NCBI GenBank assembly: GCA_001972305.1
Contig: BDDD01000056.1
Span: 253,704-317,703 of the forward strand
From: Cephalotus follicularis
Lineage: Eukaryota; Streptophyta; Magnoliopsida; Oxalidales; Cephalotaceae
Length of the DNA: 64,000 nucleotides
Reading direction: 5' to 3'
The position numbers and the translations under genes are program-made. The notes under the pieces were generated by a model. It did not search any database. It worked only from the letters and a program-made list of their open reading frames with translations, and was not told the DNA's origin. This document shows, piece after piece, positions 5,496-50,220 of this stretch; the first letter of the stretch is position 1; every line of letters begins with the position of its first letter.

Positions 5496-5497
5496 AG

Positions 5498-8835: not shown

Positions 8836-9155
8836 ACAAGTGCAACTGTTGAGGGACGAGGATATGATATGGTTCTTCTAGAGGTTGGATGTAGATCGAA
8901 GAAGAAACGAGTGACGTTTGCTTATAATATTGAGTGTGGCATTGTTCTCTTTGATTATAAGAGAGAGGTGGAGCCATATAGCACATCGCAACATTGAGCT
9001 ATGATGCCCCATTCTAGGGCATGTACATCCCACGTGAGGGCGTGGGGTCATGAAGGTTCAGGCATGAGAAACATACAGAGACATGAGCGAGAATTGAAGA
9101 CAATCAATGATGCTTCATGATGGCTAACCAGAAGAATTCAAACCAGGGTGGAGGT

Positions 9156-9490
9156 TATTGAGTTTATGTCTTACTAAGCTTTTATGTAGTTAGGTCAGGT
9201 TGGATTGCATATATGTAATGTTAAGTAGTTTATGATTAGGGTTCATGTTTCTGTATATATGTGTCTCTATATGTGATTATAAACTTGTATGCGAGCTAAC
9301 TGTTAAGGTAGCTATTGAAACAGACAGTGCCTATGATATAATCTTTGAAAACTAAGAGAATTATAGTGAGAATTTAATTCTTGACCGATAAAGAATTGTA
9401 ATATCTATTTGTGATTTTTTTTATTATTATTTATATGTGTTTTTTTCAAATCATTTCGTGTAACATCAAGAAAGACCGATATTCTCAACA
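9156..9490 (+). repeat. 3' LTR of copia copy 1
   Basis: Collinear with the 5' LTR (5085-5495) but lacks two blocks, including the one just before the end. It is preceded by a purine-rich stretch (gggtggagg) expected of a polypurine tract and ends TCTCAACA. Confidence 0.8.
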
Positions 9491-9718
9491 TATCTATCGT
9501 ACTCAGCCATTTGGCTTAAGCCATAACAACAGCGTATAACTCACCCTTGTGAGACAACAAGTGGGTCTCTTACAATCTTTTTCATGATCTTTTACACGTA
9601 TGCTGTATATGAAATCTTTTATTAGCGTCATCATGCATATTACATAGCTTCGAAGTGCGGTAAAAAACAAACACATTTATTATACCGCAACTGGGGCGCG
9701 CTTAAATTGTTCTTGTCT
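9491..9718 (-). other. presumed 3' UTR of the cyclin gene
   Basis: These 228 bp separate the cyclin stop codon from the copia 3' LTR. There is no ORF. The transcript must end here or inside the LTR; I cannot place the poly(A) site from sequence alone. Confidence 0.4.
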
Positions 9719-9807
9719 TCACAAACAACTTGCCTTGAACACATGCTCAAGAATGTTCCTGACAAGTTCGATGGTATAATCTTCTTTGCACGAGGTTACA
9801 AACTTCA
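9719..9807 (-). CDS. CYCJ18: terminal exon 9 of cyclin-J18-like gene
   Basis: This 89-nt exon follows the acceptor TTGTTGCAG. Its first two bases (TG) complete a Val codon begun by the G at the end of exon 8. It then reads [10 protein letters not shown] and ends F-K-A-S-C-L before TGA at 9721-9719. It gives the C-terminal 29 residues. It is too short to stand out as an ORF and lies 38.6 kb from the rest of the gene. Confidence 0.82.
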
Positions 9808-12800
9808 CTGCAACAACAAGTTTCCTTAATTAGTACCTATTGTGAGTTCGACAATCATTAATTGAGTTTTTAACTTTCAGTTTTTTAAATAAAAAAATTA
9901 TTTAAATCAAAATCTAAACATTTTAATTTTAAAATTTGAATTTATATATAATTTTCATAAAAAATTAAACCCTAAAACTAAAAGATAAATTGAATAATTT
10001 TTACTTTATACTTATAATATTATTGATACAAAGTTAAGAATTAAAGTTAAAAACACTCGAGTCCCAAACAGAGTTTTAATATCATTGCCGGACAATCTAT
10101 CTACATAAATTGAATAAATGGCTCAGCTTCACAGCCATAATTGCTTGGTAATCTAAAGATTCCACATTAACAACATTTATGTAACAAAAATACAAGGGTG
10201 TACTTCATGCAGTTGAGATATGAATTGATAAATGATTGTAATTAACAAAAAGATGAAAGTGGTACCCACCCAAATGGATTTTCAAACGTTTTTTCATGTC
10301 GCTCTAAAGGATCCACCAATTGACTAGCTAAGGATGACCAGGATGGAGCACCTACTACTCGCTAGCACAAAGTACCTTTATTCTGCTATTCATGCTCGGC
10401 AGAAGCCAAGACAATATAACTTTTTAGAGGATAAGTGAGCTTAGTGGAGGATTCAAGTATGTTTTGACACCTAAGACAAACTAGTAGGACCAATTTTCAA
10501 CTTTTTTTCTTTTAATTAAGATTATCCTTTTTTTATATGGTTCAAGCTTCAACCATCACAAAAAAAATCACTGACGATCTTGAAAATTGTTTGCCTCATA
10601 TCACTATTGGTGGGAGAAAGTCAAGAGAGATGTTTGGTATACGGAAAAAAAAGTTACACGACATAAAAGAAGGGTTACGCTCTATACTTTAATTCGATTT
10701 AATTAAAAAATTCAAATTTATATATTTAGATCAATTAACATTATAAACTAACAAAAATTGATAATGATTTAACGTGATATTGACGTTTATTGACATAAAA
10801 TCCACGACATCATCATAATTTTTTTTAATTTGAGGTGTTACAAATTTTTCGGGTGACACGACAATGCCACGTCCAATTATTGATGGTAACGCCAGTACTC
10901 TTAACATTTTTGTTAGTCAAAAGTGGTAATTAATCTAAATTTCTAAGAGCAGTTAGCAATCGAGAAATATGAATCTGCGGTTTGAAAGCAAGATAACTAA
11001 AGGGGTCCAAGTAGGGCCTATGTATTATAACCAATCCAATCATCATAAATGGCGTCTCTACTATTGGACAAGGACCAATCTATACAACAGACTGGCTCAA
11101 GGAATTCCTCCTGCCATCACCCACCTTAAATTATAGAGCCTTCATTCTCCATAAGGCATGAAAAGCGTTCACACGTGTGCTTTTCGTACTTAAATGTTTA
11201 GTGCGCAACACCAACACACCACAATCATATCATCCTACCTACCAGATAGTGTTGAGCACGGGACCAAGGATACAAAAAGCCAAACACTTGCTGTCAACTG
11301 AGTTCAACTCAGTAAAGTTCAACGACTTCTAATCCGCCAAAGAATTTAGCTTTGGCAAACTGGCGGTTATGCCAATCTGTAGTTTTGTTCTTTCCAAGTA
11401 ATAAAAAGGTATCCAAATAGACAGATTTACTTAATTACCCATATTCATCTGTCGAAGATCTGATTTAAAAACCTTTGACCCAATCTCAGTTTATTGAAAG
11501 CTATAACATGGCACTTTTCTACTAAAGCTCATATTTCATTTTATTTTTCTTACTTTCACACGTAGAAAATCTTGTTTATTTTACCCCCTTTCCCCATTGT
11601 GACTTTTATATAAATGAGGAAAATTTGCTCGGGGAATGTAGTTTAAAATTTATTGCCTTTGGGTGTAAAACTGCAGGTGTATAAAATGCCAAATAAACAC
11701 TGGCTCACACTTTTTTTTTTTGTTACTAGTCCAGTTAGGAAGCGCGTACTTCACACTCACTAATATCATACTTGTAGCTAGAGTTGCAAGAGGTCCGGGT
11801 CGAGCCAGACCGTGGCCCGGACCGGTCGGGACCGACGAAAGGCGGTCCGGTTCTTGAACCGGACCTCTTTTATCATGGTCCGGGCCAGTCCGGTTCATGG
11901 AGCTAAAAAATGAGAACCGAACCGGTCCGTGAACCTTAACCATGAGTGAGACTTGCCGGTTCGGACCGGTTCGGTTCATATTCACGTTGACGCGTATGTA
12001 TGACGTTGACGCTAATGTCATTTGAGCTGATATTCGTCAACGCTATCTTATGACTATGATGACCTAGAATCTTTTCATCTTGTGCGTCAACGCTATCTAT
12101 TAGCGTTAACGTCATGTTTTTGCGTCTACGATGACGTTAACGCCTATGTTAAAAAATCAAATGGTACACGATAAGCGTCAACGCATAAGTTAGACGTCAA
12201 CGCCTACGGGTCGAGTATATAATGCTCTGTGCGTTTTCGTCGACTCTTACTTGTTTTGGCGTTGAAATCTCTAGTTTCCCTCTCTCTGCTTTCTCTAAAA
12301 TCCGAACCCTAAACCTAAAAATCTTGAATCTTTTCCACTCAAAACCTTATCCTACATTATGCCGAAGACCAAGCACTCATCACATGGAGGGAAGGTACCT
12401 GCTAGTCAGAGATACAAGAGCTCTTACGCTAGGAGAAAAGTGCTCTGTGGAAGGACTGTTGATTTCTCCTTCACTACAGGTGATAAGTTTAATTTAGAAC
12501 AATGGTTTGATGTTTTAGGTTGAAAAGATTACTTTACGATTAATGCTCCATATTACATAGAATCTGTTAAAGAATTTTATAGCAATATGAGTAATGTAGG
12601 AGATGATTGCAATGATGTTTTAGAATTGACGACTAAAGTTAATAGAATAGTTATCAAGTTTGATGATAAGATTCTAGGTCAGATTTTGAATGTACCTGCT
12701 GCTGGATCAAAGTTTTTTGAAACGAAGAAATGGCCGGAGGATCCGGAATTAGTTTTGGAGGATTGTCTTAGGGTGTTCTACCCTAATGAGAATGTTTTTG

Positions 12801-15800
12801 GAGGCATGGCCAAACCTACCAATCTCCTTGGTGCTGAGCATAGGCTGCTCCACCACATAACTGCCACTTACATTCTACCTACCTCCGGTAGACATGAAAA
12901 GATGAGTTACCAAGACTTGTATATTATGTGGCACGTTGTGACTGGTAAACCATTGAACCTCCCTCATTTAATCATGAAGAACATGTTAAGAGCAACTTCT
13001 AAAGTTGAAGGTGCATTGCCATACGGTATGGTAATCACCAAGATTCTCTCTCACTTTGGGATAGTGTTTGGGAATGAAGTTGCATCGGACTAGATGTTGG
13101 GGACATCTACAATGCCTCTTCCTTGAAGAGAATGGGATGGAAGAGAGTGTTTGATTTTGAGAAAGGTGTTCAATGGCTGCCCAAGGAATGTGGAAGAAAA
13201 AGAAAAAGAGTTGAAGGTGAAGGTGATGAGGATATTGAAGAGTAAGGAGAAGCTCAAAGAAAGAAGCAAACCCCTGCACCACAGATGCAGCAAGGTCAAG
13301 CAAGTAGCAGCAGCAAGGCGTCTACGACCATGGATCTTGTGGTGGATTATCTGAGGAAGTTGAATATCAAGATGGATAATTTGAGAGAGGAATTTCTTGA
13401 CATCTTTGACGATACACATAGAAAACTTAGAAGACTGAAGAAGAAGATGATTGTCAAAGGTCTTATTGAAGCTACTGACCTCTCCTCTTCGGAAGAAGAA
13501 GAATCGGAAGAAGAATGAGGAGATAATGTGAAGACTTGATTCATATATTGCATTTTCTGTTTTTAAACATTTGGTTTATATCAGTTGTAAAACCTTTGTT
13601 TTGTATCAAATTTTCAGTTCTCTGGATGTTATATTATCATGTTACATACTTGATCTTATATATGGTTATGATGAGATGTTTGTGTAATGTGTATGCCTAT
13701 GTTTTTAAGAGTATGTATCAAATGTTTTTAAATTGATATCGTATACGCAAAGGTTATGTTTGACAGTTATGCATCAAATGTACCCGTAGGCAAATGTTTG
13801 ACAGTTATGCATCAAAGTATGTATCAAATGAAAACAATTTTATATATGTTATGCATCAAATGTTTGACAGTTATGCATGAGATGTTATATATGTTATATA
13901 TGTCTATGGGTATCTTTGAATATCAAGATGGTATAAATTGATATCATCTGTGTATCAAATGTTTGAAAGGTTATGCTTATGTTTGAAAGGAGTAGAGTTA
14001 TGTTTGACAGGAAAAATTGCAAGTGAAAACAAGCAATATGTGCATTCTGTTTTATTGGCATCAACGACTATATCTTAGGCGTCAACGTGCTGGGCTTCAA
14101 TATGAGTTTCTGGGCTTTGGAAGATGATCTTCGTCAACGCCTTTAATGATTGACGTCGACATGCTGAGAATTTCATTATCCGCGTCAACGCCTTAAGTAA
14201 GACGTCAACTCAAAAAGGTGAAACGTCAACGCCTTAAGGAAAACGTCAACGCCAAAAGGTGCAATTTCAGACAGTAGCTTTGGACGTTAACGTTAAGCAT
14301 TTTTAGCGTCAACACTTATGATTAAAACATCAACGCCATTTTTAGACGTCAACGCAGAAGAAAGCACAATGCGGATAGTGACTTGAATGTTAACGCGAAA
14401 AGTAAAAGGAGTCAACAGAAATGACATCCGCATCAACGTCATACTTACGCGTCAACGTGAATAAAGATATTTAGCATTTTGAAAAACAAAACATCAATTG
14501 AATTCAAGAAGATCACAGTTTAATATTTGAACGTTAAAAAAACATCAAAAGTTAAGTACATATTAAAAAAACAGCCAATTCTTCTTTCGATTCATTTTCT
14601 TGAGATGAGGAGATGTCATTAGCAGCTTCAACAATTTCTTTGACAATCAACTTCTTCTTAAGTCTCCTTTGTCTTATGTGTTGATCCTCAAAAAGGTCAA
14701 GAAACTCCTCTCGCATATTGTCCATCTTTCTTTTCATCTTCCTTGAATTCTTGGCGATGTAGTTTTATTCGTCACTACTACCGTTATTTTCGTCTATAAT
14801 TTTTTGAATCCTCCTATCTTGAACGATCCAATCTTTCAAGCAAACACAAATCTTCATTGTTTCTGCTTTCAACCGACCTCTTCTCTCATCCAAAACCCTA
14901 TCACCTGCAGAAAAAGCAGATTCGGATGCTACTGTGGACACAGGAGCTGTTAGTATATCACGTGCCATTATAGAAAGAATTGGATAAAAAGTATGTTGTT
15001 TTTGCCACCATTGTAAAAGATCTAAGGACGCTCTATCTTCTTTATTAATGAACTGAATATTAGTATTAAGGTAATGTTGTAGTTCAGTATTTGTATTAAC
15101 CATACTACTACTACTACTACTACTACTACCAACTCCATAAGCAATCCTATCAAAAAAATCTATGGGATCATTACCACTACTACTAACATTTTCTTGATAT
15201 TCATTTACAACACTATTTTTTAACATATGTATCAAATGCATCATGTAACAATTGAGTAATCTCATTACCATCTAATTGTATTGGATTACCTTTGCTCATG
15301 TATATTTGACATTTGTTTGCAATGAATAACATACCTTGTAATTTTATTCTATGATCCATTATAGCAGCCAAACAAAATAAAGGTGGAATTGTTTCACAAT
15401 ATTTTAAGAATTTTTCTTCCATCACATCACAAATATCTATAAAATTATTTTACACCCTATATTTAGTAAAAACTTCACAAATTTCCCACAATTTATCAAC
15501 GACTAAATTTATAGTAATATAATAAGAACCAGAAAATAGATAAGTCAATTCTTTAAATTTTTCTAAAAATTGGGTCATAACATAACAAGTTGTCCAATCT
15601 CTATCAGATATTTCAGAATAAGAAGAATATGCAGTCATGTGCATACCTATGAATGCATTTATTGGTAATCTAAATTCATAAGTACGCAGCAACATTTCAT
15701 AAGTAGAATTCCACCTATGTGTCACAGCATGTACCAAATTTTTATATTTCAAATCACATTCATTACAAAGTTGTTTAAATGTTTGTTTTCTTATACCCGA

Positions 15801-18800
15801 TTGGGCTATAAAGGTAATAATACTTGTAATTTTTTGTACTTGTTCTGCAACAAAAAGTAAACCATCTTGAACAATTAAATTAATAATATGACACACGCAT
15901 CTAACATGAAATAATTTACCATTTAATATGGGATCAAAAAACCTTTTAACTGTCTAACAGCAGCATCATTATTAGTAGCATTATCAAAACTAATAGAAAT
16001 TTTTTTTCCTCAATTCCAAACTCACGAGTTGTTTTTATTATAGAGGTAGCTATATTATGACCAGTGTGAGGATAATCCAAATTTTTAAATGCAATAATTC
16101 TTTTTTGTAATAATCAGTTTTCGTCAATATAATGAGTAGTTATACAAATAAAACTTTTTCTCGTGCTTGTGCTCCAAACATCAGACGTGAGAGAAAAAGT
16201 AGAAATTTTTGTAAAAGAAGAAATTAATTTAGCCTTGTGTTCTTCATAAATAATAAGACAATCACTTTTAAAGGTAATTCTTGAATATAATTTCGCTTGT
16301 GGATTAAGTCTTTCATGTACTAGATCATAGAAAAAAACTAAGTCAACATGGGAAAATGGTAATTCATTATCTATAATATAATAAACTAATTTTCTTCTAT
16401 AATTTTCATCGGTAAATCTAAAAGTAAGTAATTTATTATCACCACTGACTTGGCTAAATTGGAGTTGGGTTTGACCCGAACCTTTAACGCCATGTTGTTC
16501 CAAGCATTTTACTAAATGCCTCTTGTAAGTTCACGTACCACCCCCACTTGTATAAGCATAATTCTTAGTCTTACATACCTTGAAAAAGACACGTTTCTTC
16601 CCATTCCCGGCATCTCTAATCTCCATGTGCTTCCATATGCCGGATTTTTGTTTCCCCCCTTTGTTAGGATCGTTCTTCTCGAATTGTAGGGATGTTCCAC
16701 CGATCGCAGCATCCGATGGCGTATCTTCATCCAAGTCAAAAAATTTATCACCAGGTGGAGGAGGTTGTTGCATCATGTGGGCAATTTGGTCGTCGTTAGA
16801 AGGAAGTTCCACATCCGCCAAGTCGAACGCGGTGGTGGATGTAGAACCCACCTTCTCGGTCTTCCTTGCATGTTTCCTTGCTCTTGATGTTGAATCCATT
16901 ATAATTGAAATCTGTAATTAACTAATAATTAAAAAATAAGTAAGATGATAAATTATAAAAGTTAATACACTATAAGGCAATTTAGTACAATAAAACTCTA
17001 TAATTTTGACAAAAATTGATTTCAATGTTGATTGCTGTTGATTGTTGTTGTTCTTCAGTGATTCAACCTTTATTTATAGACTTCATATTGAATATAGTCG
17101 TTAGAATCATCTTCTAGCCGTTGGAATCACTTTAGGAAAATGAAATCTCCACTAAAAACTAGCCGTTTTTTTTGTCTGTTTGATTTGACGTCGACGCTTA
17201 CTCTTAGTGTTGACGTCAATAACCTTGTGCGTTAACTCCAATGGTTCTTCGCGTTGACTTCATTAGCCGCTTTCTAATTTTTGCTTCATTCACGTTGACG
17301 CCTTTTAATAGCGTTGACTCGAATGTCATTTGTGTTGCCTCAATTTGCCTTATGCGTTAACGTCCACAGCTACTACTGTCCGTTTTTTGCACCTTAGGCG
17401 TTGACGTCTAAATATTGGAGTTGACGTATTCATATTGGAGTTGACGCCAAAAATACAATTCCCAGCGCGTTGACGAGGATCATCCTGAATCAATTCATGT
17501 TGTAGCCCTCAACGTTGACGCCAATATCACGGTCCGGGCCGGTTCAACGGTTCCTGACACCCTGAACCAGCCCGGACCACATTGCCCGGACCGGTTTAAC
17601 CATGAACCAGCCACGTGGCACACGGTCCGGGCCGGTTCAAGGCCCAGGCGGGCCGGTTCGGGCCGGTTCACGATTTTAACCGGCCCACTTGCAACCCTAC
17701 TTGTAGCAAACATGAATATTGTCTTTCACTAACATAGAAACTCTGTTTCGAGTACTATCTAACTTGAAAAAAACTCATTTTCATGATTGATTTCCTTGTA
17801 CAATAAATTGAAAAATATAACAACACCAATACGCGGCGATGTGTCTACCTTCTCTTAATTTAGGCTGAAACCATAAAGAAAAGGTAACTGAAAGTATTGA
17901 CTTCATTATTTAATGTTTATGATGCATCAGCAAAATACATATTTGTTGTAACCTTTTCTAATACATGGATCGTGTTCGATTTCATGTCCTTTAGGTTCAT
18001 ATTACGGTGTACATTAACATACAGAGATGTACATTATATTACGGTGGATAGCATTACCTATGACATACTTTATTTGAATACGAAGTCCACAATATAATGG
18101 TGTGTTCATTAGAATTTTGGTACAATTTTGTAGTTGTCGCCTAAGACAACAGGCGAACAATTTATTTATTAAAAATACTTTTATCCAAAATAAATAAAGT
18201 TTTTTGAAAAATATTTTTCATAGAAAATTTTTTTACTGTGTGGTGAGTTTTTATTGGAGATACTCACTCTCCATGTGATATGTGGCAGATATTCTGTATT
18301 GTAACATGTTTGTTAATAATTTGATAAGGTATATTTTGTTTCTATATCTCATGTTGAAAGGATCACATACATGCCTTTTGGTTTCAATATGCATGATTGT
18401 GTGTGGGTAACTTTGTTTATTTGTTTTGGTTTGGGGTAATTCCATTTCTTCACGGTTGCACCAAAGTAGATCATTTTGGTATTAATGGGATTATCTCATT
18501 CTGCTGTTACAGAACTGTCTCTAAGTTATTGTATTCAATCACCTCTCCAAAGGGGGTTATTGATTGTTTTAATTTGGGGACGTGCATGAAACATTTTGTG
18601 TGAGTGTGCATTGTTCTAGAGTGTTTTATTTGCCCAAAGGTAATAAGCGTTTCGAACACTGGTGTACGCTCATTTGTTGGTTTCATGTGAAAAATCCTAC
18701 TGGCATGTTATTTCTCATCCCAAAGAACAGTTTGTAACGTTGCACCAGAGTTTTCATGGAGGATATTGCTTATTTTGTTTTTAAGCATATTCTTCTTATT

Positions 18801-39800: not shown

Positions 39801-42800
39801 AAATTCTGCTTGTTGGCTCACATTCTCTTCCTCTTGTTCTTCAACATCCTACTAGCTCGGGCACGTCTAGTCGACGGTCATGCCTTAGCTTTTCCTGCAG
39901 CTCCCCTCCTTTGGCCTTCCATATCTACCTTGTATAAGAGACAAAAGTCAGCTATCCAATTTCATAATCATAATTCCAAGACAGATGCAGCAACCAACAA
40001 CTTATCAATATCACTCAATCCTAATATCAATAGTCTTATCCATGTCACTTAATTCCAATAGCCAAGGATCCTATCCTGGTATAGCCAACATAGCGTGGCT
40101 CTGATACCACCTAAACTGTCACGCCCCGAACCCCGAGGAAGACCCCAAGGCTCAGCACATGATAGGTCCATCCATACCATCCATCACATACGTGGCATTA
40201 TACACCAACATACGCTACAAATTTAAAACATTAATATATATGACGCACGATGAAGAAACACATTCAACATTCATATAGATAAGCCCAACCATTTCCATAA
40301 CATTCGATACATATATCTTAGGCGTTGTTACAAGCCGGCATGTCAATAGTTGAAATACAAAATGTCTCTTATACATCCAAATTCATATACACAAGGTAAA
40401 TGACAGAAACTGTACTACTACAAGAAATCATGTGCTGCGATCCGGTTCGTCTGATCACTTCGGTGCTTCACCTGTACCTGACCCATTACGAGAATGGGTA
40501 ACAACCCATGGCTGTGTAGGCTATACTATATGCTATGAAATGCAGTAGTTATATATATATATATATGACATGTTATATGCATGAATGCCAATTGTGGACA
40601 ACGTCAGTATACCAATCGTCCTTAAGTGGTGGTATATTTGGCTAGTCCTAATCACATCAAAGGTCATAAGCCTACAGATACTCCATAAAACAATACATAA
40701 CCATCCATGAGGACAAACAATCCATAGGGTCAATTACTTCTCTGCCACTTCGACCCGAGATAGTATCCCCACTGTCCATACACTCTCCATGCCATAGCTG
40801 TGTGGAGCACATGATAAGACCGGCCACATAATCCGTACCGTCATGCTAGTCCCGAAGCTACCGGCCCGTAATACTAGTCCCAAAGGTACTAGCCCGTAGA
40901 AGAGATCTGTGCGATCTATGCCATAATCGTATCGTATCCATACCGTATCCATCCACAATGCAGTGATGCCCGTAGGTCACCCAAAAAGAAGGGATTGCCA
41001 TATCCATATAATATGTGGACTACACTCATAATACTTCATGATGGAAATGACGATTATGAATGGGTTATCCCGATAAGTCTCAACCATAACAATCATCAAT
41101 CATAGTCGTACCATACTCATAGGCCGTATCCGTATAACCGTAAAAATGATAGGGACATAATATAAAGGATCACATAGGATCCACTCTGTCAAAACCGTTT
41201 TCGTAACCGTTTTTCCATAACCATTTCCAAAACTGTTTTCCGTTTGTTGGTCCCTATCGAAGTTGTAAAACAATGGAGAGGAAGCCCAACTAGGAATTCC
41301 GCGTCCAGATGTCCCAATTGAGCTATCCTAACCATTCTTGAAAACCATTTATATAAAAACTCTTTTGTTGAAACTTTTCTTTAAAGAATCACTTTGAAAG
41401 TTGATTTGAAGATTAAAGATGTTAAAAGATGATTAACATAGGCTACAAGGCCTTAGGGAGGCTTCCTATGGAATCCATTTGAAGAGAAAGCCATTTGGGG
41501 TTGACAACAGTGTAGTTTAGCTGAAACAAGGAGCTAAGCGTCCACTGCTTTGTCCAAAGCGTCGATGGTTAACGCCAAAGCGTCAACGCCTTTGTGCTAG
41601 GCGTCGACGGTTAAAGCGTTTGTGCCTTGAGCGTCAACGCGTTCACTAAGCGTCAACCGTTTTGCAACACATAAAGCGTTGACGGTTTGGTCCTTAAGCG
41701 TCAAACGTTTACATGGAAGAGTCGACGGTTTGCGCGATCAAAGCGTCGACCCTATAGCCAAAGCGTCGACGGTTTGACAGCACCAAGCGGTTCGTCAAAT
41801 CGTCTGTAAAATCCATTTTAAAACTATTTAAATCAGTTTAAATTCGATCCAAAAGCAGCTATATGCCCCTAAGGTCGATAGCAACATAAAAACAGCTTTA
41901 ACCCTTCAGATCCGTACCTATAACCCATGAATCTAGAGAGATAAAGGGATTAGGCTTGTAAACCTAAACTCTCAATTCTCTCTTTGATTCCCATTTTAAT
42001 CCGTTTTAAACCATAACAGATACCATATTTCATTCATCGAGCATGTATACAACTACCCATAACCATACCATCATGCAAATGCATCAATATGTGAAAATCA
42101 AAGTATATGTAGAACTTACCTCAAATTGGCTGAGAACGGAGAATAAGCTGCTTGAATCCTTATCATGCTTCTCCCTTCAGGTTCTACAGTCTGCCACGAT
42201 CCCAAAGACACCTTACTCAATTTCGCCCACTTTCTCTCTCTAACTTACTATTTCTCTAGAATTGAACGAGAAATGAAAATGAGAATAGGAAGAGTTGAAC
42301 CGCCTATGTATAGAAATAGACTCCTTTAGGCAAAAATCTCAAAATCTACAATCATGTTCAATTGAACCCCCACTACCCGTAAACAACCATAAAAGTGAAA
42401 AATAGTATATATCATATACAATCCATGACATCTATACATACAATATCATACAATACTGTATAAGTACAAACAAAATACATACAATTCTGTACATATAAAA
42501 ATTAGGGGCTTACAATACCACCTATTCAACCGATCCACACTCCACCTACTACTACTGCTACCACAACGCATGGAGGGGTGCCACTACAAACTCCATTTTC
42601 TATCCACGCTTCTAATCTACGAGTTGGTATTGAGCGAGGTAAGGGTCCCTATGCAACAATGAATGAATTAGAACAATTGATGCAAAAGGTATGTGACTCC
42701 CCCTTATTGGCAGATATTGACATGAGGCTACTCTACCCAGTCCATTTAGTAAGTATGTTCTATCCTTTGGATTATAAAATCCCCAACTTTGATATGTTTA

Positions 42801-45800
42801 ATGAAAAAACAGGGAGTGCAAAGGAGCATAAAATCCGTTTTATAGATGCATTACGAGTGCATGGGTTAGATCTTACACCGCGCTTTCGTGAATTCTCCAA
42901 ATCACTCAGTGATAGAACGTATACTTGGTACTCAACCTTGCCAGCATGATCAGGTCCAACCTAAGACATGGCCACCTTATTCTATGAAAAATTCTTTCAT
43001 ACTCAGACTCGTATAACGGTTTTGGACTAGGGGCGCATTACCCAACTAAGTACTGAAGAGTTGGGTGTCTATGTGGAACACTTCAAGGACCAAGTTATGG
43101 AATGTCAAGAGTCTATGAACTAGGAGCATGTGATTGATACCTGTATTTGAGGTATGGCTGATGAAAATAGAGTATTTCTGGAGAATTTGGAAATCAAAAC
43201 TTTGGAGTGCCTTAGTGAGACAGCTAGGAAAACTACTGGGTCCATGAGACGAGACAGTTAGGAAATCAAGACTTTGGAGCGCCTTACAGTAGATGGCTTT
43301 CATATATCTCGGGTGCTTAGCTTCCTTTGTACTGTTTTGCTTGGTCTTTAGATCTGGAGTTTACAGCTGAAGTTTTCCTGGTATTTTGTCTTTGGGGTTT
43401 CAGCGCCTCAGCTACAATAGTTCCCTCTTGTACTTTCTGCAGCTGATGCTTATATAAGCTTGGGTCTATCAACAATTACGGCTTCTAGTTTTACATAATG
43501 TTTAGGTTTTAAACAGTTCATTTTTGGGTTTGTTTTGTTTAGCTTATAAACAATTTGCCTCTTATTTACAGATTTACCTTTGTCTTTGTAAGTGTTGAGT
43601 TTTGTCTTGTATTATGTTTGTTGGGATTTTATGTATGTGAGTCGGGTAAGTCCATTACATGTAAAGTAGGTAACTGTGATTTAGATTTCAAGTTTGTCTA
43701 TATATGTTTCTATGTGTGATTGTAAATCTGGAGATATGCTATTTGCTAAGTTGATTGTGAAACAAACAATCCCTAAGACATAAAAGCTGAGTGTGAGAGA
43801 ATTGTGGTGAGAATCTAATTTATGATCGATAAAGAAAAGAATATCTCCCTAAACAGATTCTTCGTTGGCGTAGGCCAATTTGGGTCGAATAATGTAAATA
43901 TGTGCATTCTTGTTTGTGGTTGTTCCTATTTTATTCATGTTTTTTCTCCTATCGATTCATGCATGAACGGAGAAGCCCGAAATTCCCAATAAGTGATATC
44001 ATAGTGAGGTTGATTGATTAAGGCACGAGATTGTGGAGGATAGATAGCAAAAGTCACAAAAATCATAAAATAAAATGAAGAACAATAGATACACATCATA
44101 GTTGCTGACGTTATCAACGTTGTCTTCAAGCGTTTCACTATCGGTCAGAGTCGTTACCGTTGTCCAAAGTCATCGTTGTGATCAGGATATGCCCAATTCT
44201 TCTCATGCCAAGGACATCGTCAAGAATGGTCGGATGAGGGAGAACGCGTACCAACATATTTGGTTCTTTGAGGTTTTGATCTAAACGATCATGTCCACAC
44301 CAAAAAGATCCACCACCACCGAAGTGATCAACGATTGTCAGTCGTACCAACATCGTCAGTCTCGCCATCAGAAGTCACCAAAGTTGGCCGCAAGCGTCAC
44401 ACATGCTGGCTAGTGAGATGGGATTCTATTGCATCGCGGGAAGAAAAGAAAAAAAGAAAAAAAATTAAGGTTGTGATTGCTCAGGATTTCCCTCCGTTAT
44501 CTTGGGTTATTGAAGTCAAAATTGGGTGATTCAAGAGTCAATTAAAATGTTTTTGAATCTTTTGGACGTGGTGAACGGGTCAAATTAGTGAGATGTGGCT
44601 CATATTGTGTGATTTCTGAAATTGGTGTGGTTTTGGTTTGGTTTGGCTTGGTTGATCAAGAACAATTTTTGAGTAGATTTGAGGTTGATCTCGAGAGTTG
44701 AAGTAGATGATTGGGAATAAGGAAAAGGTAGAGCATAACAGATGACAGGAAAGGGCTTGGGTTTCCCTGTGGTACATTTCAATGATCATAATGACTTCAT
44801 ATTGTGGCAACAATGGATGTATAATATTTTGACTCCGGAATGATTGATTAAAGCTCTCAAAAAGACAAAGAAATTAAAAATTTTGACTAATGAGGCATAA
44901 CAGGATATGAGGGATTTGACATGTAGTACCATTCAACTTTATCTTGTAGATAACAGGTTTATGAGAGGTCATTAGTTTAATTGATTCGTTAAATGCCTGA
45001 AAAAAATTATTCAAGTCCAAGTCTTTGCAGAAAAGGTTGTTCTTGAGAAAGACATTATATGGTCTTGAGTTAGAAGAGGGATAAAGTTTTGAGGTGCATT
45101 TAAGTGAGTTCAATAAGATTCTGACAGAGTTGGTATCTTTAGAAGTAGAAATCGAGAATGAGGATCAAACACTCCTCTTAATTGTATCACTGCCTATATC
45201 ATATGATCACATTATCACAACAGTGTTGTTTGGAAAGGATACTCTTTATTTGGATGAGGTCATTACTTCTTTACTGATAAATGAGACAATGATGACGTCA
45301 AGAAAAGGTAGTGCCTTGGTTACAACTAGTGGTCGGATAAGTAGATCAGAGAACCAAGGTGATACACCTAGCAGAGTCATAGTGCGCTCGAAGTTGAGAG
45401 TTCGCAACTAAAACAAAAAGTGTTTTGTGTACGATGAGGATTGTCATATAAAGAAAGACTGTCTGCAGTTCAAGGAGTTTATGAAGAGGAAAAAAATAAT
45501 CAAAGACTATAGTTGATCTGACATTGTCATATGAGGATGCTTCGTATCTTGATACACCTTTAGTATGGTTAGTTTAGACAGGATTTTAGATTATGGTCAT
45601 GCATTTCACTTGTGTGTAGTCAACGAGCAATTAAGCACATATCAAGCTTGCGATAGTAGTACGATTAAGATGACAAATAATGGAGAGTGCATGGTTGCTG
45701 GGATTGGATCGATACATATTCGCATGTTTGACGAAGTCTTGAGAACTTTGGCTGATATTAGACATGTGGAAGATCTAAAGAAGAATCTGATTTCATTCGG

Positions 45801-46342
45801 TACTCTGGATTTCAAATGGGTGTAGGTACACTATTGAAGGTGGAGTCATGAAGGTCACCAAGTGAGCATTAGTGAAGCTGCATGGGAGGATGATTGAAAA
45901 ACAGCACAGACTTATTTGGACTGTTCAGACATGTGGAGGTTTTGTTAGATCTCAGGCAAGTGTTACAGTTGAAGGACATGGATGTGAGATGGTTCATCTA
46001 GAGGTCGGATGTAGATCGAGGAAGAAATGTGACGTTCGCTTCTGATCTTGAGGGTGACATTGATATCTCTTATCGCAAGAGAGAGGGGGACCCACATCGC
46101 ACATCATGAAATTGAGCTAGGATGCCCTAGGCGAGGGCGTGTACTCCCCAACTAGGGTTGTGCGGCTATGTCGGTTTGGGCATGCAAACATACAAAGACA
46201 TGAATGAGTTTGCATAATTGAAGATAACTAGTGATGCTTCAGGATGGTTAGCAAAATACAAGCCAATGTGAAAATTGTTGGATTTTGTTCTTGTATTTTG
46301 TTTACTGGGCTTTTATGTATTTAGGTCGGGTTAGGATTCAGG

Positions 46343-46384
<42 letters not shown>

Positions 46385-47481
46385 GTGTGTGTGATTGCAA
46401 ATCTAATGGTAGCAAGTTATTAATGTGACTGAAACAGATAGTGCATTGGACATAAGAGTTGAGTGTGAGAGAATTATGGTGAGAATATAATTATTGACCG
46501 ATAAAGAATATAAGATCTCCCTGAATTGATTCTCTGTTGACATGGTTAATTTAGATTGAACCACGTAAATCTGTATGTTCTTATTTGTGATTTTTCTTAT
46601 TACGCTCGTATGTGTTTTTTATCGAATCGATTCGTGCGTGAACTAGGGAACCTGAAATTCCCAACCATAAGAAGTTTTATTAAATTCTTGGGCCTTGTTT
46701 AAAGTGTTTGTTTAAGGGTTGACATATTTACCCCTTTACTTGTAAATGGTTTTTTTAATATATATATACACATACCTTGAACTTTTGTTCACCATTTTTT
46801 TTAATCGACAAGATTGTTTTTCATAACAATTATGGGGCCAAAGTTTGTGGCTGTAGCAATTTATTTACAGATTCGCATCTTTGATGGAATCTTGAGAACT
46901 TTGGCTGATATTCGACATGTGGAAGATCTAAAGAAGAATCTGATTTCATTCGATACTGCGGATTTCTAAAGAGTGCAGGTATACTATTGAAGGTGGAGTC
47001 ATGAGGGTCACCAAGTGAGCATTGGTGAAACTACAAGGGAGGATGATTGGAAAACTGGACAGACTTGTTTAGACTGTTCAGACAGGTAGAGGTTTTGTTA
47101 GATCCCAGACAAGTACTACAATTGAAGTACGTGGATATGAGTCGATTGTAGATCGAGGAAGAAATGTGTGACATTCGCTTCTGATCTTGAGGGTGACATT
47201 GATCTCTCTTATCGCAGGAGAGAGGTGGAGCCACATCGCACATCACGAAATTGAGCTAGGATGTCCCAGGCAATGGCTTGTACACCCCAACTAGGGGTGT
47301 GGGGCTATGTTGGTTCGGGCATGCAAACATACAAAGACATGAATATGTTTGCAGAATTGAAGACAACTAGTGATGCTTTATGATGGTTGGCAAAATACAA
47401 GCCAATGTGAAAATTGTTGGATTTTTTTTTGTATTATGTTTACTAGGCTTTTATATATTTGGGTCGGGTTAGGATTCAGGT

Positions 47482-47532
<51 letters not shown>

Positions 47533-50032
47533 TAGCAAGTTATTAATATGACTGTGAAATAAACAGTGTCTTGGACATAAGAATTGAGTGTGAAAGAATT
47601 GTGTTGAACATTTAATTCTTGACTGATAAAGAATATAAGATCTCCTTGGATTGATTCTCCGTTGATGTAAATCAATTTATATTGAACCACGTAAATCTGT
47701 ATGTTCTTATTTGTGGTTATGCTCGTCTATGTTTTTTGTCGAATCAATTCGTTCGTGAATAGGAAAACCTGAAATTCCCAACAGTGAGAAGTTTTCTTAA
47801 GGTCTTGGGCCTTGTTTAAAATGTTTGTTTAAGGGTTGACATATATATCCCTTTACTTGTAAATGGTTTATATATATATATATATATCTTTATAAGAGAA
47901 TGATTTTAGTGCTTGTTTACATTAGAAAATAAATGGGCATATTTTCCTGTAAAGTTAATCTAGAGCGCCGCCCTCCCCCCGCAAAAAAAAAAAGGGGTCC
48001 AGCAAATAAAAACAGGACTAAATGACGGTTTCAGAAGTTCAACCGCCTGGTTGAATTTATTCTAGTAATGCTAAAAGGATGTACCAAACTAATAATAGTT
48101 AAATGACATAAATATCAATTTAGAATTTTTATTCAAAGTACTTGTTGGAGCCTAGATTAAACAATGAATCAATTGAGGGACCGAATTATAAAAATCAGAT
48201 TAATTGATGATCAAATTGATACTTTTACCTAAAAAATGGATAAATTAGATGTTGCATAAAAATATGAAATTTTTTTAGGCAAAAGTATCAATTTAGTCGT
48301 TAATTGATTCGAGTTTTATAGTTCAGTCTCTAAATTAATCCATTTTTTAGTCTAGACCTCAATAACTACTTTGAGTAAAAGTTAGAGTTCCAAATTGATA
48401 CTTTCGCCTATTTAAACAAGAAATCTTACCCCAAGGTATAATTGGAAACTCCCACCTCTGTTGAGGAACTGTGGTTACATATGCAGAAACCTGCAGGATG
48501 TTGAAAACTCTCATCAATATGAACAAACTAAATTGATTGTAGTAGAATTACTAGAAGTAGATGATGTAAAACATGCCAATACGGATGCAGCAAGAGAGCA
48601 AGGAGAACTATAAAGGACTGATGTCTCCTCCGTTTCATAGAGAAGATCCATGATGTCCATGCATGCATCAAAGTTCATGAGTTCCGCAGCCTTTGCTACT
48701 CCCCTGAACTCAAAATCACACAAAAAAATGCTCCTAGATGACTTCAGTTATCTGTTGAAAAAAACAGATTATCTTGGAATATCATAACTGTAAGAAAAGA
48801 AACTCACCGAAATTGAATAAAAAGTGCTTCAATGAATCCAAAAGCAGTATTGGTTGTGCCAATTTCAAAATCCAAAACCTTCAGAAGAAGGGACGCAAAA
48901 TAGAAAACCCATTCATACTTCATCTCAGTTGAGCTGAATAGTGCAAGTAACATCTTAAATCTACAAGTAAATATACCTGCAATAAGACCACCTCCTACAG
49001 AGAATCTCATTAAGCACTCTGGACAACATTATAAAGAAAAGAAGCAATTCTGAATGATAGTTGTAGAAGATAAATGGCTTACTGCCTCCAAAAAATCTCG
49101 AGTTGTAAAATGATCCTCTTGAATGAACTTATCTCCCAAGGACTTCAGACTTTTCACAGACAACAGACGTGAATCATGTATCTAAAAAACATCAAAATGG
49201 TCATGAATGCAGGGAAACACAATAAGAATAATGAGGAAAAATGAAGGCACAAAATACTAGAAAATGAAAAACCAACTTTGCTTGAAATCCACAGAGAAAT
49301 GAGGCCAAATAATTGCAGACTGCTCTCCCTTATTGGTTGCAAAAGCCAGCTTCGCTTGTCATCTCTTTGGATGAATCTTCACAAACAGAACCGAGATTCA
49401 AAACAATTACACGACATCAAGTAAAACCCCTTGGAAAAAAATATCAACCAGCGAAACAAAATAACTTATTTACAACATGTGGATAACAATACAAACAATG
49501 TTGAAGCTAAAACTGTTGGTACCGACTTGTGTGGTTGAATTTAATTAAAATTCTTCAGTAAACTTAACAGTTACGCAACAAATTAGATAAAATTTTATTT
49601 ACAATAGATAAAATTTCAATATTTGTAGGGCTACATTTTGTTTTTGTTTAAAACTAAAATGAGAGAATATCACTTAATTTCTTATGGATTTTAAGAAACC
49701 TCAACTATAATTTTGCATATTAACAAAGAAAAATATATATTATTTATATTAAAAAGGGGAAAAAAAGTATTAAAAGAAATCGTAGAACAAACCTGGAGAG
49801 AGAAGAATAAAATCGATCTGCGAAGAGTGTTAATGCAGTGTACTTGACAATGGGAGTAACTTCCAGTTGCTACAATAACATATTCCAAAATACGAATAAT
49901 TAAATCAAAGTAATACAAAAACAATGACATATAATAATGTAACATTCTCTTGAAATTAATTACCGTAGCAGATTGAATAAGAAACTCCACCGCTTGGAGT
50001 CGCAGAGAAGAAGAAGAGCTATCAATTCGCAT
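9719..50032 (-). CDS. CYCJ18: cyclin-J18-like gene, nine coding exons, 38.6-kb intron 8
   Basis: The coding exons on the minus strand are 50032-49964, 49869-49793, 49376-49277, 49181-49083, 48994-48977, 48878-48808, 48703-48577, 48490-48430 and 9807-9719. They join in phase to 711 nt, 236 residues plus TGA, close to the length I recall for Arabidopsis CYCJ18. Recognisable blocks are A-V-E-F-L-I-Q-S-A at the start, [12 protein letters not shown] and W-I-S-S-K in the cyclin fold, [42 protein letters not shown] and V-K-F-V-T-S-C. Cyclins bind and activate cyclin-dependent kinases in the nucleus; J18 is an atypical plant class whose partner I do not know. The introns are 94, 416, 95, 88, 98, 104, 86 and 38,622 bp. 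All have GT-AG ends except intron 7, whose donor is GC or a GT six bases upstream. No stop or frameshift is seen. The identification is from memory of the family; the exon phases are direct. Confidence 0.88.
9808..11770. other. 3' end of giant intron, no gene seen
   Basis: AT-rich intron sequence between the acceptor of exon 9 and the hAT element. No ORF, terminal repeat or RNA gene was recognised. Part may be ancestral intron. Confidence 0.5.
11779..12215. repeat. left hAT terminal and subterminal repeats
   Basis: The inverted repeat is followed by about 170 bp rich in CCGGACCGG-type palindromes. A cluster of GCGTTGACG/CGTCAACGC copies follows from about 11985. In hAT elements, repeated short subterminal motifs are the usual transposase-binding sites; which motif serves here is inference. 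Confidence 0.8.
12359..13518 (+). pseudogene. hAT-borne accessory gene, plant-transposon-protein-like domain
   Basis: The frame opens at ATG 12359, is broken by TGA at 12521 where a Trp is expected (F-D-V-L-G then stop), and runs on to a stop at 13091. A change of frame at about 13090 allows it to continue as [11 protein letters not shown]. There is another stop near 13242, and a coiled-coil, acidic tail ([11 protein letters not shown], then [11 protein letters not shown]) ends at 13518. The middle ([24 protein letters not shown]) resembles the 'putative plant transposon protein' domain of many retroelement-linked plant ORFs; that match is from memory. It is not a transposase. Its tail is homologous to an inverted copy at 14552-14737. 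Confidence 0.62.
13519..14049. repeat. AT-rich 3' region with short degenerate repeats
   Basis: The sequence downstream of the accessory gene contains several spaced copies of a phrase like TTTGACAGTTATGCATCAA (about 13758-13880). It has no gene; the small ORFs here are repeat artefacts. Confidence 0.6.
14050..14470. repeat. central array of CGTCAACGCC motifs in the hAT
   Basis: About a dozen imperfect copies of (G)CGTCAACGCC and its complement lie within 420 bp, between the accessory gene and the inverted tail copy. The same motif forms both subterminal clusters of this element. Confidence 0.8.
14552..14737 (-). pseudogene. inverted second copy of the accessory-gene tail
   Basis: The minus strand reads [15 protein letters not shown], then [10 protein letters not shown] and a Ser/Glu-rich end. 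This matches the C-terminus of the plus-strand accessory gene (13370-13518). It follows the transposase stop by about 30 bp on the same strand, so both genes of the hAT end in related tails facing each other. Confidence 0.75.
14765..16899 (-). pseudogene. hAT transposase (BED finger, RNase-H-like fold, hATC dimerisation domain)
   Basis: The reading starts at ATG 16899. A BED-type finger lies at about residues 90-135 (S-G-I-W-K-H, then S-G-G-G-T and K-R-H-L-V-K-C); the first zinc Cys is replaced by Phe (V-F-F-K-V-C). The core has [10 protein letters not shown] and [10 protein letters not shown]. The C-terminal hAT dimerisation domain has [21 protein letters not shown] and L-K-D-W-I, ending near 14765. 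Breaks include TGA codons near 16532 and 16113, base losses in homopolymers near 16000 and 15945, and a frame break near 15450. It resembles RICESLEEPER/DAYSLEEPER-type zinc-finger BED proteins. It once excised and integrated the element; this copy cannot. Confidence 0.9.
17180..17699. repeat. right hAT subterminal and terminal repeats
   Basis: GCGTTGACG-type motifs (17185-17525) are followed by a CCGGTTC/GGTCCGGGCC-rich block and the inverted end CTTGCAACCCTA. The arrangement mirrors the left end. Confidence 0.8.
17708..18840. other. intron sequence, no gene seen
   Basis: AT-rich DNA between the hAT and the copia gag relic. The 5' LTR of that copia should lie here, but I find no primer site or LTR end that I trust. 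Confidence 0.4.
18841..19769 (+). pseudogene. gag: copia gag and protease start
   Basis: Fragments in several frames read like a copia gag: an R-W-K-Q-D block, [25 protein letters not shown], and [12 protein letters not shown]. They are followed by a zinc knuckle relic (C-Y-K-T-G-H-I-R, stop, D-C; about 19605-19632). The first Cys of the knuckle is changed. The last codons ([10 protein letters not shown]) are the protease start, with the catalytic D-S/T-G altered to D-N-D. Stops and frameshifts throughout make it inactive. Confidence 0.75.
19775..20702 (+). repeat. 5' LTR of the gypsy, internally deleted
   Basis: Starts TATAACACCCCG (the usual TGTAACACC with one change) and ends GTCGTGTCA. 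From about 20274 to 20606 it matches 23646-23970. It then jumps to the segment that in the 3' LTR begins near 26050. Confidence 0.82.
20707..20718 (+). promoter_or_regulatory. primer-binding site (tRNA-iMet type)
   Basis: TGGTATCAGAGC lies four bases after the LTR end. Confidence 0.85.
20811..22339 (+). pseudogene. gag: gypsy gag with start of protease
   Basis: The frames carry gag features: F-L-M-E-K-G-A-L-R then a stop for Trp, [10 protein letters not shown], and [17 protein letters not shown] zinc knuckle follows near 21980-22025 ([14 protein letters not shown]), in which the fourth ligand Cys is Phe. The protease begins with L-F-D-T-G-S-T (about 22300-22325), so its catalytic D-T-G is kept, but TAA follows at 22337. 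At least six stops lie upstream. Confidence 0.82.
22340..23642 (+). pseudogene. pol: gypsy protease, reverse transcriptase and start of RNase H
   Basis: Visible blocks are [15 protein letters not shown] (protease-RT linker), [21 protein letters not shown] and the catalytic box as [10 protein letters not shown]. The usual F-I-D-D is changed, so the enzyme is dead. [11 protein letters not shown] follows at about 23520. The frame ends at [10 protein letters not shown], where a deletion joins it to the LTR. Confidence 0.85.
23643..26155 (+). repeat. 3' LTR of the gypsy, 5'-truncated
   Basis: Matches the 5' LTR at both its ends and carries the 2.1-kb middle missing there. The middle is AT-rich with no coding. 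Confidence 0.82.
26161..27760 (+). pseudogene. pol: copia integrase and start of reverse transcriptase
   Basis: After the gypsy the same polyprotein resumes, with the GAG-preintegrase box ([12 protein letters not shown] near 26395, then [13 protein letters not shown]) and C-A-D-C-I-R. Next comes the integrase core with S-D-R-D-G-E-Y-Y and [13 protein letters not shown] (26772-27104 open). In the N-terminal part of reverse transcriptase, [11 protein letters not shown] and V-W-E-L-V-E-L-P are visible (about 27560-27640). Stops and a large deletion end it near 27760. Confidence 0.8.
27909..28309 (+). repeat. likely 3' LTR of the split copia
   Basis: Begins TGTTAGACAATA directly after a purine tract and contains a (GT)n run near 28115. 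It probably ends near the TTATGACA at 28309. The right boundary is uncertain because the other LTR is not identifiable. Confidence 0.5.
28310..29596. other. intron sequence, no gene recognised
   Basis: AT-rich with short frames only. A frame near 28690-28860 (+) is open but matches nothing I know. Confidence 0.4.
29597..29934 (+). mobile_element. relic LTR plus primer site, Tat/Ogre-like gypsy
   Basis: TGTCACAAGTCTCACTAGG starts a segment with a TATAAATAGAGG promoter-like box and the phrase 'ggaggacctcaagta' seen in Tat-lineage LTRs. It ends CAACA near 29912. The primer-like ATTGGTGTCATCCATGG (29918-29934) matches the unusual primer site of this lineage. No gag or pol follows. Lineage is from memory of the motif. 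Confidence 0.5.
29935..31193. other. unassigned DNA and probable LTR of the outer gypsy
   Basis: 29935-30550 has no recognisable gene. From roughly 30580 to 31193 there is a promoter-like stretch (TATAAATAGAGG near 30943) ending TTAAACA, which looks like the 5' LTR of the gag relic that follows. Its left end is not defined. Confidence 0.4.
31197..31512 (+). pseudogene. gag: outer gypsy: primer site and first part of gag
   Basis: A primer-like TTGGCGATTCCACTGGAG follows an LTR-like end. Gag starts at ATG 31230 with M-A-R-R-R-N-V-P-V, then stops and frame changes, and a Gln-rich stretch. It is cut at 31512 by the Tekay-like element. The rest of the gag lies at 42520-43300. Confidence 0.62.
31513..33891 (-). 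repeat. 3' LTR of the Tekay-like element
   Basis: 2379 bp, collinear with 40117-42514 but visibly diverged, so the insertion is not recent. An array of AAGCGTCGACGG/AAGCGTCAACGC motifs lies at about 32909-33175. Confidence 0.92.
33892..33904 (-). promoter_or_regulatory. polypurine tract of the Tekay-like element
   Basis: The minus strand reads ATGAGGGGAGGA directly before the LTR start TGTAAGC, as needed to prime plus-strand DNA synthesis. Confidence 0.85.
33935..35494 (-). pseudogene. pol: Tekay-like RNase H end, integrase and chromodomain
   Basis: On the minus strand, 35494-35108 carries the end of RNase H ([13 protein letters not shown]) and the integrase zinc region ([10 protein letters not shown]). 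35107-34595 holds the catalytic core across stops, with [11 protein letters not shown] and S-S-R-D-P-R-F-T-S. 34594-34403 has [10 protein letters not shown]. 34351-33935 has the integrase C-terminus ([12 protein letters not shown]) and a chromodomain-like end ([18 protein letters not shown]). Chromodomains of this class are thought to guide insertion to heterochromatin. Stops make the protein inactive. Confidence 0.9.
35491..36700 (-). pseudogene. pol: Tekay-like reverse transcriptase and RNase H
   Basis: The minus strand is open for 279 codons (36330-35491), with [14 protein letters not shown], the catalytic [20 protein letters not shown] and the RNase H motifs Y-S-D-A-S-G and L-E-L-A-A-I. 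Upstream, 36700-36331 holds fingers motifs ([17 protein letters not shown]) with stops. The polymerase active site itself is intact. Confidence 0.92.
36571..37799 (-). pseudogene. Tekay-like protease, split by a solo LTR
   Basis: The protease start is at 37799-37624 ([10 protein letters not shown]; the usual D-T/S-G is D-P-G). It continues at 37147-36571 after the inserted LTR with [19 protein letters not shown] and the linker [13 protein letters not shown]. The changed catalytic loop and the stops argue against activity. Confidence 0.85.
37148..37618. mobile_element. small solo LTR (471 bp) inside the Tekay-like protease
   Basis: Begins TGTAAGAACCC, ends GCGCTACA, and is flanked by the perfect duplication taaaa (37143-37147 and 37619-37623). 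It interrupts the protease frame cleanly. It shows no coding and could be a solo LTR or a short non-autonomous LTR element. Confidence 0.88.
37800..40080 (-). pseudogene. gag: Tekay-like gag, interrupted by a hAT derivative
   Basis: On the minus strand the gag shows [41 protein letters not shown] and a zinc-knuckle region near 37990 ([13 protein letters not shown]). Between the capsid part and the knuckle it is split by the 677-bp hAT derivative at 38157-38833. Several stops are present. Confidence 0.85.
38157..38833. mobile_element. non-autonomous hAT derivative (677 bp)
   Basis: The ends (TAGAGTTGCAAG and CTTGCAACTCTA) are the same as those of the 5.9-kb hAT at 11779-17699. The subterminal CCGGTTC and GCGTTGACG motifs are also shared. 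A perfect 8-bp duplication cctctgcg flanks it (38149-38156 and 38834-38841). There is no coding. It would depend on the transposase of the larger family. Confidence 0.93.
40096..40109 (-). promoter_or_regulatory. primer-binding site of the Tekay-like element
   Basis: The minus strand reads TGGTATCAGAGCCA, seven bases inside the 5' LTR end, matching initiator methionine tRNA. Confidence 0.9.
40117..42514 (-). repeat. 5' LTR of the Tekay-like element
   Basis: 2398 bp, the partner of 31513-33891. It carries the same GCGTCGACGG/GCGTCAACGC array (about 41535-41780). Confidence 0.92.
42520..43300 (+). pseudogene. gag: outer gypsy: rest of gag
   Basis: Continues the gag begun at 31230. After a Pro/Thr-rich linker come [24 protein letters not shown] and [12 protein letters not shown], the retrotransposon gag fold, then stops. 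No pol follows; the sequence ends in unassigned DNA near 43300. Confidence 0.75.
43306..43592. other. unassigned intron sequence
   Basis: T-rich DNA of unknown origin before the second pol-less copia. I see no gene. Confidence 0.4.
44746..45411 (+). pseudogene. gag: copia gag (single copy) in element copy 2
   Basis: Fragments match the gag of copy 1: [19 protein letters not shown], and an open part at 45094-45411 with [17 protein letters not shown] and L-F-G-K-D-T-L. There is only one unit, so the triplication at 6249-8282 is private to copy 1. Confidence 0.78.
45565..45985 (+). pseudogene. copia protease and preintegrase relic in copy 2
   Basis: Open at 45565-45825 with [18 protein letters not shown] and [12 protein letters not shown], then decayed. 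Like copy 1, it then enters the common tail, not integrase. Confidence 0.75.
46276..46665 (+). repeat. 3' LTR of copia copy 2
   Basis: Related to 43593-43991. It contains an (AT)n run (46344-46374) where the duplicated LTR at 47415 has a (GT)n run. Confidence 0.8.
46871..47890 (+). repeat. tandem duplicate of the copy 2 3' end
   Basis: Repeats 45718-46766 with an offset of about 1.14-1.15 kb. It holds the end of the protease region, the non-coding tail, an LTR (47415-47783) and even the downstream flank ('gaagtttt...gggccttgtttaaa'). Because the flank is included, this is a local tandem duplication, not a second insertion. Confidence 0.82.
47484..47531. repeat. (GT)n microsatellite in the duplicated LTR
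   Basis: An uninterrupted GT run of about 48 bp. The corresponding position of the sister LTR has AT repeats. The His-Thr-rich minus-strand ORF over it is an artefact. Confidence 0.95.
48105..48409. repeat. foldback element at the start of giant intron 8
   Basis: Two arms of about 130 bp (48105-48240 and 48278-48409) are imperfect inverted repeats. Both carry AAATTGATACTTT-type ends and the AGTATCAATTT phrase. There is no coding. It looks like a MITE or foldback transposon and lies 20 bp inside the intron from the exon 8 donor. Confidence 0.75.
48430..50032 (-). CDS. CYCJ18: cyclin-J18-like gene, exons 1-8 block
   Basis: Eight exons in 1.6 kb encode the first 207 residues and carry nearly the whole cyclin fold. 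The start ATG (50032-50030) is the first in the open frame and matches the family's N-terminal position before A-V-E-F-L-I-Q-S-A. The end phases are 0, 2, 0, 0, 0, 2, 0 and 1, and each matches the next exon. The donor of exon 8 is a strong GTAAGA after a Trp codon plus one G. The only partner that supplies the missing TG and continues the protein is at 9807. Confidence 0.88.
48977..48994 (-). CDS. CYCJ18: 18-nt microexon (exon 5) of cyclin-J18-like gene
   Basis: The six codons read E-V-V-L-L-Q and fill the gap between ...F-L-E-A (exon 4) and V-L-D-F-E-I-G (exon 6). The acceptor is TTCTCTGTAG and the donor CAG/GTATAT. Without it the protein lacks six residues of a cyclin helix but stays in frame. 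Confidence 0.8.
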
Positions 50033-50220
50033 TGTTAGATTTGTATGTCTCTTACTTCTTCTCCGAGTTTTTTTTTTTTTTTTTAGGTCTAATTTGTTTT
50101 GAATGGGGAGGACAGATATAGAGTTTTGGCCGCGAGCCTGACGCCTTAAAAGCGCCAGAAAACGGGCCAGTCCCGGCATAGCACGTTTTCAAACGAGTTC
50201 GACCTGGTTTTAAAAAATTA
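50033..50220 (-). promoter_or_regulatory. 5' UTR and promoter-proximal region of the cyclin gene
   Basis: On the minus strand, upstream of the ATG, there is a poly(A) stretch, a TCTATAT box near 50115 and a TCTGGCGCTTTT stretch near 50155. The last is close to the plant E2F consensus (TTTSSCGC), expected of a cell-cycle gene, but the match is imperfect. No transcription start can be fixed from sequence. Confidence 0.35.

Follow-up and report, generated by a model that had tools for sequence, protein, structure and literature searches.

We propose, at a probability of roughly four in five, that Cephalotus follicularis (the Albany pitcher plant, a carnivorous species) makes a 236-residue cyclin-J18 from a CYCJ18 gene whose ancestral intron 8 has been grown by transposons, the transcript being spliced from position 48430 to position 9807. 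Positions are those of the window, that is, the whole stretch of 64 kb of DNA that was analysed. The gene lies on the minus strand, and its nine exons are intact: joined, they give 711 nt and 236 amino acids with a single terminal stop. The nine-exon model with fitting phases and no internal stop, given in the preliminary description of this DNA, is borne out by this join, and the coordinates agree with its distance of 38,622 bp between exons 8 and 9. The parts of the gene are as follows; exons 1 to 8 are placed by junctions and frame.

50032-49964, minus strand: CYCJ18 exon 1
49869-49793, minus strand: CYCJ18 exon 2
49376-49277, minus strand: CYCJ18 exon 3
49181-49083, minus strand: CYCJ18 exon 4
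48994-48977, minus strand: CYCJ18 exon 5, an 18-nt microexon
48878-48808, minus strand: CYCJ18 exon 6
48703-48577, minus strand: CYCJ18 exon 7
48490-48430, minus strand: CYCJ18 exon 8
48429-9808, minus strand: CYCJ18 intron 8, 38,622 bp, phase 1, GT-AG
9807-9719, minus strand: CYCJ18 exon 9, coding end and stop, placed by junctions, frame and an exon-9 profile
9618-9718, minus strand: candidate 3' UTR of CYCJ18, from motif only (AATAAA starting at 9681 and 9623)

Introns 1-7 measure 86-416 bp each, in contrast to intron 8 with its 38.6 kb; because both kinds occur in the same gene, CYCJ18 offers a compact setting in which to test how transposons are spliced across. Intron 7 is of the GC-AG type (GC at 48575-48576) and every other intron is GT-AG. 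Intron 8 has the donor GTAAGA and the acceptor TTGTTGTTGCAG, with a TACTAAT upstream of the acceptor that we take to be a branch-like motif. The identity as cyclin-J18, already claimed in the preliminary description, is confirmed by the Cyclin_N domain (PF00134, E 6.7e-11 in Pfam) and by the best homology to annotated cyclin-J18: among the matches listed, many named cyclin-J18 proteins are about 58-72% identical to the product over most of its length. Legume J18 genes are reported to have 8.67 exons on average, which is in line with nine (PMC7763586). The match to a solved structure, cyclin D1, covers profile positions 59-148 only and leaves exon 9 uncovered. None of nine papers found for CYCJ18 deals with intron 8, as far as titles and the first parts of abstracts indicate.

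The best database match of the spliced protein is a C. follicularis protein, P0001. Except at two junctions that were predicted differently, it agrees with the translation of the window, and the agreement extends to 49 residues upstream of the ATG chosen here; an open reading frame (49691-50179) extends over the region of this ATG. P0001 is partial and terminates with ...EFPIIPW, at the final full codon of exon 8. Its two differing junctions have the microexon-5 residues EVVLLQ swapped for 13 other residues, and seven extra residues (AFFNILQ) between exons 7 and 8, where, by our reading, a nearby GT and another acceptor were used in place of the GC donor of intron 7. In 89 of the 120 listed homologues a six-residue peptide stands directly before the pattern [VMI]L.F, the remaining 31 being skips, annotation variants and pattern misses. 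Exons 7 and 8 are joined directly in 83 of them (36 were not parsed), and the insert occurs in P0001 only. The exon model of the preliminary description is thus closer to the homologues than the public one. In this way the public model of a conserved cyclin is corrected in its last exon, its 18-nt microexon and its GC-AG intron, giving an example of how a transposon-rich genome can conceal an exon from annotation. Misannotated plant microexons (there, of up to 15 nt) are described as a known problem (PMC8831610). The 18-nt microexon is also absent from P0012, P0020 (Vitis), P0018 (Castanea), P0041 (Apium) and P0084 (Gossypium).

Exon 9 contains the conserved C-terminal stretch of CYCJ18 that ends in ILKHVF, as seen both in the alignment and with a profile built from 102 homologues after exclusion of 18 of the 120 for differing ends. 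Searched against the six frames of the window, this profile matches 9722-9829 with an E of 3.7e-16, the runner-up having an E of 0.23, and no other exon 9 lies closer to exon 8. The distance alone might suggest that exon 9 does not belong to this gene and is the leftover of a second, decayed CYCJ18 copy. We find this hardly credible: no exon-9 candidate lies nearer, a tblastn search of the window with the whole protein gave no second copy of any CYCJ18 exon below E 0.1 (the known exons are recovered, except that the 18-nt exon 5 has no match of its own), and P0001 is the one Cephalotus protein named among the 120 listed of 299 homologues. By mean distance, the window gene ranks 51st of 103 over exons 1-8 (193 columns) and 71st of 103 over exon 9 (24 columns); the ratio of exon 9 to exons 1-8 is 1.20, rank 70 of 103, the median being 1.13 and the 95th percentile 1.42. 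Exon 9 does not appear conspicuously diverged, being slightly farther than exons 1-8 and inside the range of other species, in a comparison whose power is low, since with 24 aligned residues a few My of neutrality would be hard to detect.

The homologues also bear on the age of the intron. The exon-9 end is carried by 102 of the 120 listed homologues, while the other 18, Cephalotus included, change or end directly after a conserved Trp (17 flagged by pattern, P0039 added by reading the alignment). The 18 include proteins of oaks, chestnuts, grape, kiwifruit, persimmon and Magnolia; not every one of them is an independent case. Protein ends placed so exactly at the Trp point, indirectly, to an old intron there, and the position of intron 8, phase 1 after the conserved Trp codon, looks old. 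Alternative ends at the exon 8-9 junction are common in annotation, to judge from these predicted proteins; the annotated CYCJ18 proteins P0028, P0054, P0059, P0109, P0116 and others, from several plants, stop soon after the Trp, with a tail that is often intron-like.

The elements identified inside intron 8 are the following.

11779-17699 (11771-17707 with duplication), unstranded: hAT transposon with terminal inverted repeats and the 8-bp target duplication CTTGTAGC
14768-15271, minus strand: hAT dimerisation frame (Pfam) within this hAT
12587-13090, plus strand: Transposase_32 frame (Pfam) within this hAT
19775-26155 (19770-26160 with duplication), plus strand: Ty3/gypsy-type LTR element with duplication CTTTT and zinc knuckle, protease and RT frames
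20277-20703 versus 23643-23967 plus 26038-26155: matching LTR pieces of this element
26161-27750, plus strand: possible decayed copia remnant, weak, with integrase and SH3-like matches below the Pfam cut-off
31513-42514 (31508-42519 with duplication), minus strand: Ty3/gypsy-type LTR element with duplication ATACC and 2.4-kb LTRs; its frames are protease, RT, RNase H and Tf2-type SH3, with chromodomain and integrase below cut-off
38157-38833 (38149-38841 with duplication), unstranded: small hAT-type element with target duplication CCTCTGCG
43590-47890, plus strand: decayed copia-type sequence with gag and Pol_BBD frames

Two hATs and two LTR elements make up the at least four insertions with perfect target duplications that had been claimed, and the description of the intron as transposon-packed is upheld as well, the identified elements covering about 72% of intron 8 once the copia-type sequence and a foldback described below are added. 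When the scan was strict (8-bp duplications flanking inverted ends of 12 bp, no more than one mismatch), it found only the two hATs and gave 0 matches in each of 20 Markov controls. Two extra matches from a looser scan (8-11 bp, at most two mismatches) look like LTR or tandem-repeat artefacts. The 5-bp duplications CTTTT and ATACC were read by eye. The left end of element 19775-26155 starts with TA instead of TG, and the duplication guided its choice; moreover, for the first part of its left LTR no counterpart was seen in the right LTR. The history of this element is less clear for both reasons. The copia-type sequence at 43590-47890 shows about 72% similarity to parts of a region on the downstream side of the gene, 5081-9406.

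Concerning the three-deep nesting in the preliminary description, two levels are firm, as the hAT at 38157-38833 lies within the LTR element 31513-42514. For 31513-42514 itself no host transposon was found, and a third level is no more than possible. A Pfam search at E 0.1 with a 147-aa frame beside 31513-42514 gave nothing; the frame is unlike the gag frame of the window (62896-63825), and the candidates of similar length include no homologue of it at E 1e-5. A copia host of 19775-26155 is suggested on the right side by Pfam matches, all below cut-off, and the two frames on its left side have no copia match in Pfam.

Over 2354 sites, the two LTRs of 31513-42514 share 90.1% identity (K2P 0.107), which corresponds to 4.1-8.2 My at rates of 1.3e-8 (as in PMC7981209) and 6.5e-9 (assumed). 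Those of 19775-26155 are 99.1% alike over 325 sites, giving 0.36-0.72 My, in disagreement with their second piece (97% alike over 100 sites, 1.2-2.4 My). The right LTR of the same element contains a 5S rRNA-like stretch (25989-26088; RF00001, 36.1 bits) found by a lax Rfam scan of 19500-27000 and lying below the gathering score of 38; it is shortened in the left LTR, at about 20585-20640. LTRs of this kind have been described for Cassandra elements (PMC10853983; PMC10886601), which are non-autonomous, whereas the carrier found here has some coding sequence, namely protease and RT frames. Rfam at gathering thresholds and ARAGORN reported nothing in the window. Pfam scans of 40 open frames, 26 from the intron (of 99 there with at least 70 aa) and 14 from the flanks, gave no non-transposon family at cut-off; the matches to DUF4295, ChpXY, DUF3234, UVSSA_N and MPDZ_u10 fall below it and were read as chance. 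A small nested gene could still lie among the other approximately 73 intron frames.

The target duplications also bear on whether the great distance could be an artefact of an assembly join, with exons 1-8 and exon 9 truly close together or on separate molecules. The stretches 9808-11770, 17708-19769, 26161-31507 and 42520-48429 are without target-duplication support and would leave places for such a join. On the other hand, duplications matching on both sides support continuity over 11771-17707, 19770-26160 and 31508-42519, and these duplication-bounded stretches make up 60% of intron 8. The 64 kb contain no N, and exon 9 is correct in order, strand and phase. We therefore consider a join very improbable.

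According to the preferred reading, in which intron 8 was enlarged by transposons, the intron would stand at its ancestral position, in phase 1 right after the conserved Trp codon, and would have grown to 38.6 kb by repeated insertions during millions of years in an LTR-rich genome. The insertions may have been tolerated because they are located between splice sites that are still intact, and exon 8 (48430) would be spliced to exon 9 (9807) to give the 236-aa cyclin. We infer transcription of the gene and splicing across intron 8, and silenced chromatin of the IBM1/EDM2 kind would be a plausible state of the intron.

The start of intron 8 carries two further features.

48105-48408, unstranded: foldback (inverted repeat), whose pairing starts after 21 unpaired nucleotides of the intron
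48359-48429, minus strand: frame reading on from exon 8 into the intron, which adds 23 residues before a stop

The predicted RNA of the 304-nt foldback has a folding energy of -101.1 kcal/mol, against a mean of -48.0 for 100 shuffled sequences (z -12.0); its far end is set by the stretch chosen for folding. The same place was also picked up independently as an inverted pair, its 113-nt arms being 79% complementary. The foldback contains the stop of the read-through frame, which ends at 48359, as well as the first AATAAA, at 48133; a second AATAAA follows at 48061. If the foldback lies in a transcribed intron, it may give rise to hairpin small RNAs.

This arrangement allows another product, in which a short isoform would be the main one: with proximal polyadenylation inside intron 8, the Trp would be followed by 23 residues read from the intron, and exon 9 would be used rarely or never. 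The frame does stay open for these 23 residues and is then followed by the two AATAAA motifs. Among the listed non-Cephalotus homologues, 17 of 119 diverge right after the Trp (not all independent), several with tails PWGK or PWGN as expected if the donor is read through, and in Arabidopsis loss of intronic heterochromatin is reported to lead to premature polyadenylation at RPP7 and PPD7 (PMC10241880). However, AATAAA is frequent in AT-rich DNA, the donor and acceptor of intron 8 are both intact, exon 9 is likewise intact and its divergence falls within the range of other species, and most listed homologues (102 of 120) have the exon-9 end. We regard a mainly short product as unlikely. There is also a small chance that intron 8 is an old isoform switch of flowering plants, and that in Cephalotus the transposon-filled intron with its foldback, which could feed small-RNA silencing, has now made the control of short and long cyclin sensitive to chromatin. 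This idea is of interest because a strong foldback after the donor coincides with frequent alternative ends.

Introns lengthened by transposons are already well known in plants, and CYCJ18 intron 8, enlarged as we propose, is a clean example that leaves the knowledge of introns unchanged. In Chloranthus spicatus, 876 of 2184 orthologues are reported as genes longer than 20 kb, with LTR elements as the major contributor to long introns; the same source groups genes with an intron length (per intron or per gene) above 40 kb and gives their expression (PMC8626473). The likeness to Chloranthus and magnoliids lies in introns lengthened largely by LTR elements with a conserved exon structure, but that evidence is genome-wide and RNA-supported, whereas ours concerns one gene known from its sequence (PMC8626473). 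Large introns of grapevine consist of more than 80% repeats and are likewise transposon-expanded, LTR elements included; they are copia-rich with many young elements, whereas here older and younger elements of the gypsy, copia and hAT types occur together (PMC3058033). Very long introns are also found in Cycas, averaging about 30.8 kb and reaching about 1.5 Mb in a gene whose expression was observed; this plant differs in being a gymnosperm with far longer introns, a large portion of that content being unknown sequence (PMC9023351). In Arabidopsis, intronic heterochromatin together with IBM2/EDM2 prevents early polyadenylation (PMC10241880; PMC11265718). CYCJ18 resembles IBM1, RPP7 and PPD7 in having a transposon or repeat in an intron and possible proximal polyadenylation; heterochromatin and IBM2/EDM2 dependence were measured for those genes, whereas CYCJ18 intron 8 is read from sequence (PMC11265718; PMC10241880).

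The genome of Cephalotus is itself reported to be very rich in LTR elements (80.61%, from the context a share of the genome), second to maize in that survey (PMC7981209), and RNA-seq reads of the species have been published under PRJDB15743 (PMC12873510). The flanks of the gene in the window contain repeats of copia gag, a gypsy gag frame and a SWIM frame that is presumably MULE-like, and thus transposons are not restricted to intron 8. The surprise expressed in the preliminary description at an intron of 38.6 kb was overrated, because the genome is LTR-rich, the flanks hold transposons and longer introns occur in expressed plant genes (PMC9023351). Upstream of the gene there is an inverted-repeat element (53551-56313) whose arms measure about 340 nt each and are 87% alike; no clear target duplication was read off for it. 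Downstream of the gene, in the copia gag region, tandem copies of 678 bp, about 95% alike, occupy 6242-8282.
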